NCBI RefSeq assembly: GCF_015548375.1
Contig: NZ_JADMWW010000009.1
Coordinates: 1 to 64,000 of the forward strand
Origin: Collinsella aerofaciens
Lineage (GTDB): Bacteria > Actinomycetota > Coriobacteriia > Coriobacteriales > Coriobacteriaceae
Reading direction: 5' to 3'
Length of the DNA: 64,000 bases
The translations under genes were made by a program, and so were the position numbers. The notes below the pieces were generated by a model. It was not told where the DNA came from and did not search any database. It saw nothing but the letters and a program-made list of their open reading frames with translations. Within the stretch, counting starts at the first letter, position 1; each line of letters begins with the position of its first letter. Positions 56,950 to 61,515 of this stretch are shown here, piece by piece.

Positions 56950-59196
56950 ATGACACTCGTATCCAAGACCTTTGAGCTGTACGGCAAGACCTACACCTTT
57001 GAGTCGGGCGAGCTTGCCAAGCAGGCCACCGGCGCCTGCCTGGTCAAGCAGGGTGACACCACGATGCTCGACACCGTGGTCGTCTCCAAGGAGCGTAAGA
57101 ACTACGACTTCTTCCCGCTGACCGTCGACTTCAACGAGAAGATGTACGCTGCCGGCCGCATCCCGGGTGGCTACCTCAAGCGTGAGGGCCGTCCCAGTGA
57201 GAAGGCTACGCTCACCGCGCGCATGATCGACCGTCCGATTCGCCCGAGCTTCCCGGATGGCTTCCGCAACGAGGTGCACATCGTCGCCACCTCGCTCGTC
57301 GCCGACCAGGTCAACCCCTTCGACGTCATCAACGTCATGGGTGCTTCTCTGGCCATGACGCTCGGCGGCGTGCCCTTCGAGGGTCCGCTTGCCTGCGTGC
57401 GCATCGGCCGTAACGTGGAGACCGGCGAGTTTATCGTCAACCCCACCTACGAGGAGCGCGAGAACTCCGATCTGGACCTGGAGCTGGGCGGCTCTGCCGA
57501 CTTCATCTCGATGGTCGAGGCCGGCGCCGAGGAGATCTCCGAGGACGACATGCTCGCCGCCATGAAGTTTGGCCAGGAGGCCCTTGCTGCTTTCTGCCAG
57601 GCTCAGGACGAGTTCGTTGCCGAGTGGGAGCAGGTCAACGGCCCCATCGTCAAGAAGGAGTACCCGCTCGACCAGCCCGTCGAGGAGGTCCAGGAGCGCA
57701 TCTTCGCCCACTACGACGAGATGGCAGCCGCCCTTCGCGACGCCGACAAGCTCTCCCGTATCGGCAAGGTCGAGGCTCTGAAGGAGTCCATCCGTGCCGA
57801 GTTTACCGAGGAGGAGCAGGCCGCTTGGGAGCGCGAGATCCCCGTGGCGCTCAAGAAGCTCGAGAAGAAGGCCATGCGCACCATGGTCGTCGAGACCGGT
57901 GAGCGCGTCGACGGCCGTGCCGCCGACGAGATCCGTCCCATCATGGTGAAGGACAACTACCTGCCGCTCGTTCACGGCTCCGGCCTGTTCCAGCGTGGCC
58001 AGACCCAGGTGCTCTCCGTCCTGTCGCTCGGCATGCTCAACGAGGGCCAGCGTCTGGATACCATCGAGCCCACCGAGGGCAAGCGCTACATGCACCACTA
58101 CAACTTCCCGCCTTTCTGCACCGGCGAGACCGGCCGCATGGGCAGCCCCAAGCGCCGCGAGATCGGCCATGGCAATCTGGCCGAGCGCGCTCTGCTTCCG
58201 GTGCTTCCCGACGAGAACGAGTTCCCCTACGCCATCCGCGTCGTCTCCGAGGTCATGGAGTCCAACGGCTCCTCTTCGATGGCTTCGACCTGCGGCTCCA
58301 CGCTCGCCCTTATGGACGGCGGCGTGCCCATTAAGCGCCCGGTCTCCGGTATCGCCATGGGCCTGATCCAGGAGGAGGGCAAGACCGTGGTCCTGTCCGA
58401 CATCCAGGGTCTCGAGGACTTCCTGGGCGACATGGACTTTAAGGTCACCGGCACCACCGAGGGCATCACCGCCCTGCAGATGGACAACAAAGCCACCGGC
58501 CTCACCTTCGACATCCTGGCCCGCGCTCTGCAGCAGGCCAAGGAGGGTCGCGCCTTCATCCTGCAGAAGATGCTCGATGTGATCCCCGAGCCGCGCCACA
58601 CCACGCGCAGCACCGCTCCGCGCATCGTCTCCATCCAGGTTCCGACCGACAAGATCCGCGACGTCATCGGTTCCGGCGGTAAGGTCATCCGCGGTATCCA
58701 GGATGAGACCGGCGCTTCGGTCGACATCCAGGAGGACGGCACCGTCTTTGTCGGCGGCACCGGCGAGTCCGTGGACCAGGCTGTCGAGCGCATCAAGCTC
58801 ATCATCAAGGTTCCCGAGCCGGGCGAGGAGTACACCGGTCGCGTGGTCTCCATCCAGCCCTTCGGCGCCTTCGTCAACCTGCTGCCCGGTAAGGACGGCC
58901 TGCTGCACATCTCCCGCGTCGCCAAGGGCCGCGTGGAGAAGGTCGAGGACGTCCTCAACGTGGGCGACGAGGTCAAGGTCGTCGTCATCGAGGTCGACGA
59001 TCGTGGCAAGATTTCGCTCGATCGTCTGGACAAGCCCGAGGCCCCGGCTCGTGCCGAGGGTGCCTCTGAGGGCGACGGCGAGCACTTCCAGCGCCGTGAG
59101 CGTCCGCGTCGCGAGCGCTCCGAGCGCAGCGACCGTCCGCGCCGTCCCGGCGACAACGGAGGCCGCAAGCCCCGTCGTCACCACGACGCCGAGTAA
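56950..59196 (+). CDS. pnp: Polynucleotide phosphorylase, 748 aa
   Basis: PNPase degrades RNA 3' to 5' using phosphate and can add tails. Two RNase PH domains flank a helical domain; the second has SDIQGLEDFLGDMDFKVTGT. The KH domain carries IRDVIGSGGKVIRGI, and an S1 domain follows. The C-terminus ends in about 35 residues rich in Arg, Glu and Ser. ATG 56950 has AAAGGAG upstream. The gene is separated from rnj by a terminator and two long palindromes. Confidence 0.98.
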   Translation: MTLVSKTFELYGKTYTFESGELAKQATGACLVKQGDTTMLDTVVVSKERKNYDFFPLTVDFNEKMYAAGRIPGGYLKREGRPSEKATLTARMIDRPIRPSFPDGFRNEVHIVATSLVADQVNPFDVINVMGASLAMTLGGVPFEGPLACVRIGRNVETGEFIVNPTYEERENSDLDLELGGSADFISMVEAGAEEISEDDMLAAMKFGQEALAAFCQAQDEFVAEWEQVNGPIVKKEYPLDQPVEEVQERIFAHYDEMAAALRDADKLSRIGKVEALKESIRAEFTEEEQAAWEREIPVALKKLEKKAMRTMVVETGERVDGRAADEIRPIMVKDNYLPLVHGSGLFQRGQTQVLSVLSLGMLNEGQRLDTIEPTEGKRYMHHYNFPPFCTGETGRMGSPKRREIGHGNLAERALLPVLPDENEFPYAIRVVSEVMESNGSSSMASTCGSTLALMDGGVPIKRPVSGIAMGLIQEEGKTVVLSDIQGLEDFLGDMDFKVTGTTEGITALQMDNKATGLTFDILARALQQAKEGRAFILQKMLDVIPEPRHTTRSTAPRIVSIQVPTDKIRDVIGSGGKVIRGIQDETGASVDIQEDGTVFVGGTGESVDQAVERIKLIIKVPEPGEEYTGRVVSIQPFGAFVNLLPGKDGLLHISRVAKGRVEKVEDVLNVGDEVKVVVIEVDDRGKISLDRLDKPEAPARAEGASEGDGEHFQRRERPRRERSERSDRPRRPGDNGGRKPRRHHDAE

Positions 59197-59218: not shown

Positions 59219-59250
59219 CAAGGGCGACTCCGGACAGGGGTCGCCCTTTT
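59219..59250 (+). terminator. Intrinsic terminator after pnp
   Basis: AGGGCGAC (59221-59228) pairs with GTCGCCCT (59240-59247), followed by TTT. The 3' arm's last bases and T-run (59243-59250) also form the outer end of the first long palindrome. Confidence 0.8.
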
Positions 59251-59391
59251 GCTTGCGCCCGGGAGGGCCGCATATGAAGTTTCCTGCTCTACAGTCCTGC
59301 GCAAGACGGAAAGCACATTAAGTGCTTTCCTTTGCGTGCGGAACTCGCGATAAACTTCATATGCGGCCCTCCCGGGCGCAAGCAAAAGGGC
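59243..59391. repeat. Long palindrome A: perfect 40-bp arms with a 69-nt structured tip
   Basis: Positions 59243-59282 and 59352-59391 are exact reverse complements over 40 bases. The 69-nt tip (59283-59351) starts with CCTGCTCTACAGTCCTGC and contains an inner hairpin GGAAAGCAC/GTGCTTTCC with loop ATTAA. It ends with GCGGAACTCGCGAT. The same tip, inverted and with compensatory inner-stem changes, caps palindrome B. No gene lies inside. It may be a transcribed RNA fold or a DNA element. Confidence 0.9.
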
Positions 59392-59515
59392 TGGTTAGTG
59401 CCGCTCGCTATTTAGTTAGACAGTCTATTCAGTAGTCAGATTTCAGATCAGTAGATAGACACAGCAGTATTTCCCCTGATAAAACCTACCAAAATAAACC
59501 TATCTCATATTGGCA
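59392..59515. other. A+T-rich spacer between the two long palindromes
   Basis: No gene, promoter or known motif recognised. It is more A+T-rich than the surrounding chromosome and contains repeated short CAGT/AGAT-like words. It may be part of a composite element spanning 59243-59656. Confidence 0.5.
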
Positions 59516-59656
59516 GGTCAGGGCTCAGCGGCCCCGGCACGGGCTAAGTTTATCGTGAGTTCCGCACGAACAGGAGGCCACTTAATGTGGCCTCCGTCGT
59601 GAGCAGGACTGTAGAGCAGGAAACTTAGCCCGTGCCGGGGCCGCTGAGCCCTGACC
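59516..59656. repeat. Long palindrome B: perfect 36-bp arms with the same 69-nt tip, inverted
   Basis: Positions 59516-59551 and 59621-59656 are exact reverse complements over 36 bases. The loop is also exactly 69 nt (59552-59620). Read on the minus strand it begins CCTGCTCTACAGTCCTGC, has inner hairpin GGAGGCCAC/GTGGCCTCC with loop ATTAA, and ends GCGGAACTCACGAT, nearly the tip of palindrome A. The outer arms are unrelated to those of A except for AAGTTT next to the tip. Confidence 0.9.
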
Positions 59657-59844: not shown

Positions 59845-61515
59845 ATGGCAGCTAAAAAATCATCTCCCTTGAAGATCATTCCGCTCGGCGGCCTTGACGG
59901 CATCGGCAAGAACATGACGGTCTTCGAATGCGGCGACGACATGGTGCTCGTTGACGCTGGCCTCATGTTCCCCGACGATTCCCAGCCCGGTATTGACCTG
60001 GTGCTTCCCGACTACACCTATGTTCTGGAGAACGAGGAGAAGCTCCGCGGTATCGTCGTCACCCACGGCCACGAGGACCACACCGGTTCGCTTCCGTATC
60101 TGCTGCAGGACCTCAACAACAAGGTGCCCATCTTCTCGAGCAAGCTGACGCTTGGCTTTATCGAAGGCAAGCTTTCTGAGTTCCGCATCCGCGCACCCAA
60201 GTTCCGCGAGGTTAAGGGCGGCAGCCATGTCAACCTCGGCGGCATCTCGCTCGACTTCTTCTCGATGACGCACTCCATCCCCGGCGCTCTGGGCGTGTTC
60301 ATTCGCACCAATCAGGGCACCGTTATGCACACTGGCGACTTTAAGCTCGACCAGACGCCCATCGATGGTGTCACGCCCGACTATGCCGCTATCAGCCGCT
60401 TTGCCAAGCAGGGCATCGACCTGTTGCTGTCCGACTCCACCAATGCCACGGTTCCCGGCTTTACCAAGTCCGAGGCCGAGGTTGGTCCCAACCTACTGCA
60501 TGCCATCAAGAACGCCCCGGGTCGCGTGTTCGTCGCTTCGTTCTCGAGCCATATCCATCGTTTGCAGCAGATCTGCGATGCCGCCCGCAAGTGCGGCCGT
60601 AAGGTCGTTGTGACCGGTCGCTCCATGCTCACCAACACCCGCGTCGCGCGCGAGCTGGGCTACCTCAACATCGACGATGCCGATATCATCGATGCCTTCG
60701 ATATCGATAACCTGCCCGACGACAAGATCGTCGTCATGTGCACCGGTTCTCAGGGCGAGCCGCTGTCGGCCCTGTCCCGCATGGCCAATGGCGAGCACAA
60801 GACGCTCTCTATCCACGAGGGCGATACCGTCATCCTCTCGGCAACTCCCGTTCCCGGCAACGAGAAAGCCGTTCAGCAGGTCGTCAACAGCTTGGCCAAG
60901 CTCGGCTGCGACGTGTGGGATAAGAACCGTGCTCTTGTCCACGTCTCGGGCCACGGCAGCCAGGAGGAGCTTAAGCTCCTGATGGCCATGGCCAAGCCCA
61001 CGTACTTTATGCCGGTTCACGGTGAGGCCGTGCATCTGCGCGCCCATGCCCAGCTGGCCCGCAAGATGGGCATCAAGGATGATCACATCTTTATCCTCGA
61101 TAACGGCGACACGCTCGAGATGCGCGGTGGTATCGTCAAGCGTGGTACGCCCGTCGAGTCCGGCGTCGTCTACGTCGACGGCCTGCGTATCGGCGATACC
61201 GACCCCATCGTCCTGCGCGATCGCCAGAAGCTCGCCAATGACGGTATGGTCACGGCCGTCGCCATCGTCTCGCTCAAGCACAAGAAGATTGAGGCCATCG
61301 AGTTCTCGGGCCGCGGCGTCTCGTTTGCCATCGACGACCAGTTCTCCGAGGATGCCTCCGCGTCTATTATGAAGACGATTGAGAAGGGCAAGTTCAGCTT
61401 TACGAGCAGCGGTTCCGATGCCATTCGCAAGGCCGTGCGCGACTCGCTCTCTAACTTTATCTGGAGTCGTACGCGCACTCGTCCGATGATCATCCCGGTC
61501 GTCATGGAGGTTTAG
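59845..61515 (+). CDS. rnj: Ribonuclease J, 556 aa
   Basis: RNase J is a metallo-beta-lactamase/beta-CASP RNase with endo- and 5' exonuclease activity and a main mRNA decay enzyme in Gram-positive bacteria. The metal motif THGHEDHTGSLPYLL, MHTGDFKLDQTP, the beta-CASP SFSSHIHR and the C-terminal VHVSGHGSQEELK and MPVHGEAVHLRAHA regions are present. ATG 59845 lacks a close ribosome binding site; GAAAGGA is about 15 nt upstream. It ends one base before the ftsK start. Confidence 0.97.
   Translation: MAAKKSSPLKIIPLGGLDGIGKNMTVFECGDDMVLVDAGLMFPDDSQPGIDLVLPDYTYVLENEEKLRGIVVTHGHEDHTGSLPYLLQDLNNKVPIFSSKLTLGFIEGKLSEFRIRAPKFREVKGGSHVNLGGISLDFFSMTHSIPGALGVFIRTNQGTVMHTGDFKLDQTPIDGVTPDYAAISRFAKQGIDLLLSDSTNATVPGFTKSEAEVGPNLLHAIKNAPGRVFVASFSSHIHRLQQICDAARKCGRKVVVTGRSMLTNTRVARELGYLNIDDADIIDAFDIDNLPDDKIVVMCTGSQGEPLSALSRMANGEHKTLSIHEGDTVILSATPVPGNEKAVQQVVNSLAKLGCDVWDKNRALVHVSGHGSQEELKLLMAMAKPTYFMPVHGEAVHLRAHAQLARKMGIKDDHIFILDNGDTLEMRGGIVKRGTPVESGVVYVDGLRIGDTDPIVLRDRQKLANDGMVTAVAIVSLKHKKIEAIEFSGRGVSFAIDDQFSEDASASIMKTIEKGKFSFTSSGSDAIRKAVRDSLSNFIWSRTRTRPMIIPVVMEV

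Follow-up and report, generated by a model that had tools for sequence, protein, structure and literature searches.

A family of extragenic DNA palindromes, old and specific to Coriobacteriales, with a conserved tip and arms that appear to be maintained by DNA copying

Coriobacteriales carry a family of extragenic DNA palindromes that is old and specific to this order, and in which a conserved tip of about 70 nt is flanked by long arms of nearly perfectly paired but freely differing sequence. The family was previously unnamed, and the openly licensed literature, supplements aside, gave no earlier description of it. Its existence is certain, and a maintenance of the arms at the DNA level is well supported. 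On balance, we consider it probable that these palindromes originated by fold-back of flanking DNA, that their arms are corrected by template switching, that their tips are exchanged between copies and that they have a REP-like role at gene boundaries. The starting point was a stretch of 64,000 nt from Collinsella aerofaciens (hereafter the window), for which an earlier note had reported two long inverted repeats with related tips and unrelated arms.

These two hairpins lie between pnp and rnj and face each other. The gene pnp for polyribonucleotide nucleotidyltransferase (56950..59196, plus strand; NCBIfam NF008805/TIGR03591 and its open reading frame) is situated to the left, i.e. on the 5' side, of hairpin 1, whose left arm (59243..59282), tip (59283..59351) and right arm (59352..59391) are read on the plus strand. 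A spacer without strand assignment (59392..59515) separates it from hairpin 2, which is read on the minus strand, with the 3' arm at 59516..59551, the tip at 59552..59620 and the 5' arm at 59621..59656. The gene rnj for RNase J (59845..61515, plus strand; NCBIfam TIGR00649) is found on the 5' side of hairpin 2 and has its start codon towards it. Both inverted repeats are exact, as had been described: the arms of hairpin 1 are complementary at 40 of 40 positions and those of hairpin 2 at 36 of 36, each around 69 nt, and the arms of hairpin 2 extend to 39 bp if one mismatch is accepted. The intrinsic terminator of pnp, recognized from its sequence (59220..59252, plus strand), overlaps with its 3' half the left arm of hairpin 1, which starts inside that half.

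The description of the two tips as near reverse complements was also accurate, because the 81-nt cores at 59277-59357 (plus strand) and 59546-59626 (minus strand) are 86% identical on opposite strands. Hairpin 1 has a type I tip with the CGCAAGACG/CTTTGCG variant and hairpin 2 a type II tip with the CTCACGACG/CTGTTCG variant; the three compensatory pairs claimed for the inner hairpin are present. The shared 18-mer CCTGCTCTACAGTCCTGC occurs at only two places within the window, both in the hairpins, at a chance expectation of 0.02. Folding of the tips gave z-scores of -4.4 and -4.1 in tip orientation and of -2.7 and -3.8 for the complements. An assembly artefact is excluded, since the hairpins recur in many independent assemblies, including the one-contig genomes G002, G074, G097 and G103. 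As a side observation, the sequence at 59470-59517 of the window resembles the right flank of the copy beside rpsL (L002), and the stretch TTCCCC(A/T)GATAAAACC..CCAAAATAAACCT....TTGGCAGG is common to the flanks of the antisense-type hairpins at rnj and rpsL; it is possibly a promoter or another repeat.

The search for further copies with a conserved tip and variable arms, which the earlier note had suggested, was successful in the own genome as well as in relatives. With the 81-nt core as query, the own genome, which belongs to the Collinsella aerofaciens complex, gave 28 matches that represent 25 elements, as six of the matches belong to three elements that are each split into halves at contig ends, where the hairpins break the assembly. 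Two more copies were found by covariance model, which brings the number to about 27, and all 25 copies examined are intergenic. In the genus Collinsella, the DNA search detected copies in 36 of 45 genomes, and one clade, the C. aerofaciens complex, has about 25-30 per genome. Sequence-verified copies exist in three families of Coriobacteriales, including Slackia isoflavoniconvertens. A strict-core scan of the phylum matched 12 of 396 genomes, all of them Coriobacteriales, and zero with reversed-pattern controls. The covariance model scored 145 of 299 genomes of the order as positive; being rich in stems, however, it also gives scores to the complementary strand, and this count is therefore not used on its own. 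In G024, G026 and G044 the model found no copies. Regarding carriage by phages, two core patterns had zero matches in IMG/VR.

The tip core consists of CAGTCCTG(n)CTCGCACG, a stem of 7-9 bp with the loop ACATTAAGT or CCACTGG and variants, and CGGCTCGTGCGGAACT, which corresponds to type III. This is the only named type among the sampled copies of the families f2 and f5, and types I and II were found in the own taxonomic family only. Tips can be up to 98% identical between sites while the arms, mostly 16-45 bp long and perfect or near-perfect in the own genome, differ completely. Only the innermost bases of the arms are common to different sites, so the claim that the outer arms are unrelated and only the tip is shared holds true. 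The same site can carry different tip types in different strains. Furthermore, G002, G004, G005 and G006, one of them a single-contig genome, have hybrid hairpins whose left and right arms come from two different alleles, and which show recombination inside the tips.

A functional RNA fold is usually proven by covariation, from which the earlier note had concluded that the fold is under selection. This conclusion could not be upheld. Over 180 distinct arm haplotypes with 5,297 pairs, 5,162 pairs (97.5%) are of the Watson-Crick type, and the remainder comprises 33 G.T, 58 A.C and 44 other pairs. Among the own copies, 27 of 38 pairs are altered on both sides. At orthologous sites, minimum spanning trees of the haplotypes contain 47 concerted versus 25 one-arm changes, counts that are not fully independent of one another; 16 of the concerted changes are transversions, for which no wobble intermediate exists. 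At the pnp-rnj site, for example, GGGAGGGCCGCATATG and GGGAGGGACGCATATG occur in different strains, each perfectly matched on the opposite arm. The adjoining pnp terminator provided a wobble control from the same strains: 15 of its 176 pairs are G.T (8.5%, 16 strains), with a T.G pair in most strains examined, compared to 3 of 997 pairs in the hairpin arms. RNA selection on this strand should raise G.U far above A.C, which is not the case, and reading the opposite strand yields a wobble excess of less than twofold, at about 1% of the pairs. Arms and tip stem nearly free of wobble pairs, together with changes on both sides at once that include transversions, are what DNA copying predicts. Hence, the complementarity of the arms looks like the result of DNA-level copying from arm to arm, i.e. 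template switching, and not of RNA-fold selection.

The base composition of the arms was considered as well. The share of G over C in the 5' arm is 0.60 with the left gene in sense and 0.59 with the left gene in antisense, so that the asymmetry is a property of the hairpin itself, independent of transcription. Arm pairs show an excess of G-C over C-G and of T-A over A-T, in agreement with the direction that was predicted by Monttinen and Loytynoja if template switching is intrastrand (PMC8794818); however, G.U intermediates underlie their asymmetry argument, and in the present arms A.C mismatches are the commoner ones. Differences in one arm are common (25 of 72 changes), hence correction is not instant. 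Moreover, at some orthologous sites (nrdD, L013) the arms are too different to be aligned, which point correction alone does not explain.

Traces of how the arms arose are found beyond them. At 13 of 54 sites, in-register inverted similarity beyond the arms exceeds the 99% null level, obtained from mismatched pairs, against an expectation of 0.5 sites; it continues for roughly 20-80 nt past the perfect arms, is nearly always in register and is decayed. In several sense-type copies the left part is the coding end of the neighbour gene (nrdD, a HAD hydrolase, a glycosyltransferase), so the right part is an inverted copy of native left DNA. Such a copy is what DNA synthesis that folds back or switches template around the tip should produce. 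A fold-back origin is therefore likely for part of the family; only a quarter of the sites keep the inverted flank copy, and for the remaining ones such an origin may be presumed. Convergent paralogous genes were rejected as a source of the flank similarity, as the flanking proteins are not paralogues. An EM search for a right-flank motif gave nothing clearly above shuffled controls, and a downstream loop motif noticed by eye, GTTNACTTG, and a GGCTGATAA motif received no support in this comparison. Another long palindrome of the own genome, GTTGCGGTGAAATAGGGACTGATTTTGCGG ... AAACAGTCCCTATTTCACCGCAAC, was seen to the right of the tip at L008. Empty sites were only partly recovered: relatives include sites without a hairpin, but the complex yielded no clean pair of sites before and after insertion, and the hairpin-free pnp-rnj region of G001 and rpsL side of G025 are equally explained by deletion. 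In other Collinsella species that lack the hairpin, the sequence around the junction has diverged too far to serve as a pre-insertion site. As another observation in the genus, the nrdD-nrdG intergenic region of hairpin-free sister species (L267 in G042, L269 in G031, L270 in G038) carries the palindrome GGGAAAATGGGGACAGTCCCTATTTTCCC, sometimes twice, which looks like a separate REP family.

The copies occupy preferred positions with respect to genes. According to a simple codon-usage gene finder, the left gene is in sense with its stop codon at most 70 nt from the core at 62 of 127 sites (20 genomes), and in antisense with its start codon at most 70 nt from the core at 14 of 127. The neighbour genes of about 116 sites are co-directional in 82 cases, convergent in 31 and divergent in 3. 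Replication orientation, counted by hand from coarse GC skew, gave no consistent bias, with 17 of 20 copies co-oriented with the leading strand in G103 and about 9 of 21 in G018. Several positions are common across genera; apart from pnp and rnj, genes were named by eye on the basis of their translations. A hairpin is placed 48-69 nt upstream of cysS in three genomes of Collinsella and in two further genera, and 57-64 nt upstream of leuS in two Collinsella genomes and one further genus, and Collinsella and another family share one 48 and 50 nt after valS, in each case with unrelated arms; a convergent glycosyltransferase/peptidase pair likewise has its hairpin position in common across genera. 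This conservation of position indicates that the hairpins are mostly old. In one genome of another family, an NlpC/P60-like gene is accompanied by a hairpin with a Collinsella-type tip at the equal distance of 62 nt (L061 in G198, family f5), and gene and hairpin together may have been acquired by horizontal transfer. The non-independent changes, the simple gene finder and the by-eye names limit the precision of these results, not the main conclusions.

Four other explanations were weighed. The hairpins could act as structured RNA, within 3' UTRs or as small RNAs, with a tip that binds a protein or ligand and a stem selected as double-stranded RNA, e.g. for RNase III processing or for stabilising mRNA. 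The tips indeed fold better than shuffles, are asymmetric and have been conserved in three families; half of the copies are oriented in sense at most 70 nt from a stop codon, and many are placed between co-directional genes such as nrdD/nrdG or ispF/cysS. We nevertheless regard this explanation as unlikely, because G.U pairs are nearly absent from arms and tip stem and are in no excess over A.C in the arms, the adjoining pnp terminator does carry wobble pairs, and no Rfam family matches. Moreover, the left gene is in antisense at a third of the sites, so its mRNA would carry the reverse complement. The notion of unusual intrinsic terminators with freely varying stems is hardly credible. GC-rich stems directly after stop codons would be in line with it, but a T tract is missing, with at least five T among the 10 nt that follow the arm at 8 of 127 sites and in 33 of 381 background windows, and separate classical terminators precede (pnp) or follow the hairpins. 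The statement that the hairpins are not a normal terminator, REP element or known riboswitch is thus borne out by the lack of a T tract, of a REP tag and of an Rfam match; the window had no matches at the Rfam gathering thresholds, and the best permissive ones were far below the cut-offs.

The remaining two explanations involve movement or exchange of DNA. That a Y1/RAYT transposase currently mobilizes the hairpins in trans as a REP-like element appears quite improbable. The copies are multiple, extragenic and palindromic, pairs closer than 400 bp are mostly facing (43, versus 12 back-to-back and 2 in the same orientation), and the own genome has two RAYT-like Y1_Tnp genes (G000:C11:236617-236949, L330; G000:C9:43688-43972, L331). 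However, neither of these is near a hairpin of the family, and their loci contain none; G016 and G018 have 13 and 24 hairpins without Y1_Tnp, and hairpins are few in G021 and G042 despite four Y1_Tnp genes. The GTAG tag was not found; the stop codon TAG stands beside 54% of the hairpins versus 46% in the background (p = 0.30), which is not significant, and is lost at orthologous sites. Arms are unshared between sites, and some positions are common across genera. MITEs and similar mobile elements would have terminal inverted repeats common to all copies and target-site duplications; in the present family the arms differ from copy to copy, and no clean empty site is distinguishable from a deletion. 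Transposition of the whole hairpin was rejected, as arm likeness between sites is limited to the innermost bases. From the earlier proposal of a family of mobile hairpins, the family with its conserved tip and variable perfect arms could be kept, whereas mobility is not supported, given positions within a few nt across genera, unshared arms and copy presence that RAYT genes do not track. The earlier note had also suggested a recombinase substrate, and some facing pairs do lie on both sides of a variable gene. We find it very doubtful that facing hairpins are boundaries or recombination sites of small gene cassettes that exchange cargo. A hexapeptide acetyltransferase gene between the facing pnp-rnj hairpins of G009 (L324:817-1437), two facing hairpins around two open reading frames at a pcrA-manA site (L114) where the own genome has a single hairpin, and the recombination inside tips seen in hybrid hairpins fit this idea; but such cases are few, most facing pairs have a gene-free interval of about 100-200 bp between them, a recombinase tracking the hairpins was not found, and the two L114 frames have no Pfam, NCBIfam or PADLOC match. 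The latter are two overlapping minus-strand frames of 287 and 342 aa (L114:2166-3949), for which a label as AbiE-like, given by eye, was discarded after Pfam, PADLOC and NCBIfam gave no support.

For the fold-back and template-switch explanation that we prefer, the following course is proposed. The tip would probably serve both as nucleus of hairpin formation and as recognition site for a putative host factor. Fold-back or template-switched DNA synthesis would copy the gene-side flank around the tip and create an inverted duplication of about 100 nt, the outer part of which would then decay by mutation. The inner 20-45 bp would be re-perfected repeatedly by intrastrand template switching in replication (quasipalindrome correction), so that the arm sequence could drift with pairing remaining perfect, and recombination could exchange tips among copies or strains. 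Physiologically, the hairpins are most likely REP-like gene-boundary elements with a conserved recognition tip; this is the least certain part of our proposal and is judged from position, because the copies directly follow stop codons or adjoin a start codon and almost never lie between divergent genes. More tentatively, it is possible that the palindromes build themselves: a tip beside a gene would prime fold-back copying of the host flank and replication would keep re-copying the arms, such that the element is defined by tip and pairing and has no arm sequence of its own. As a natural and replicated system, the family allows template-switch correction to be measured in bacteria, and it lends itself to a clean test of the origin and persistence of perfect palindromes. 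Its abundant perfect covariation, better explained by DNA copying according to the wobble test, is a warning for the discovery of structured RNAs. Moreover, the tip of about 70 nt, conserved across the order, represents a concrete target for the search, in common gut bacteria, for a factor that binds DNA or RNA hairpins.

Compared to known systems, the hairpins resemble REP/BIME/REPIN elements with their RAYT (TnpA-REP) in being multi-copy, extragenic and palindromic, in their frequent inverted pairs and in conserved stem bulges (PMC8266576, PMC3733652, PMC2817692, PMC3116915). REPs, however, are 20-50 nt long, conserve the stem itself and have a GTAG/CGTC tag (same sources), whereas the present hairpins conserve a 69-nt tip, have arms of 20-45 bp that are unrelated between sites, lack the tag and are not tracked in their presence by RAYT. 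They work like a REP-type extragenic element, yet they lack the hallmarks of REPs, namely the tag, a conserved palindrome and an association with RAYT, and we do not class them as REPs. With the structured RNA families of Rfam they share a covarying stem with conserved internal loops, but they match none of these families and essentially lack wobble pairs. Perfect inverted repeats are also known from organelle genomes, e.g. nematomorph mtDNA (PMC6649704); these are organellar and located within coding genes, and the parts of that report considered here do not describe a comparable conserved structured tip. A correspondence in mechanism is found with quasipalindrome correction and template-switch mutations, which likewise produce perfect complementarity at the DNA level, concerted changes and an excess of G-C and T-A in 5' to 3' direction (PMC7202029, PMC8794818). 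Concerted changes of both arms without wobble intermediates, as expected of a palindrome maintained by template switching, were observed in the present family. Such mutations are known as sporadic events at individual hairpins (PMC7202029, PMC8794818), whereas in the present case the same process appears to have preserved perfect pairing around a conserved tip in an entire dispersed family and for long times.
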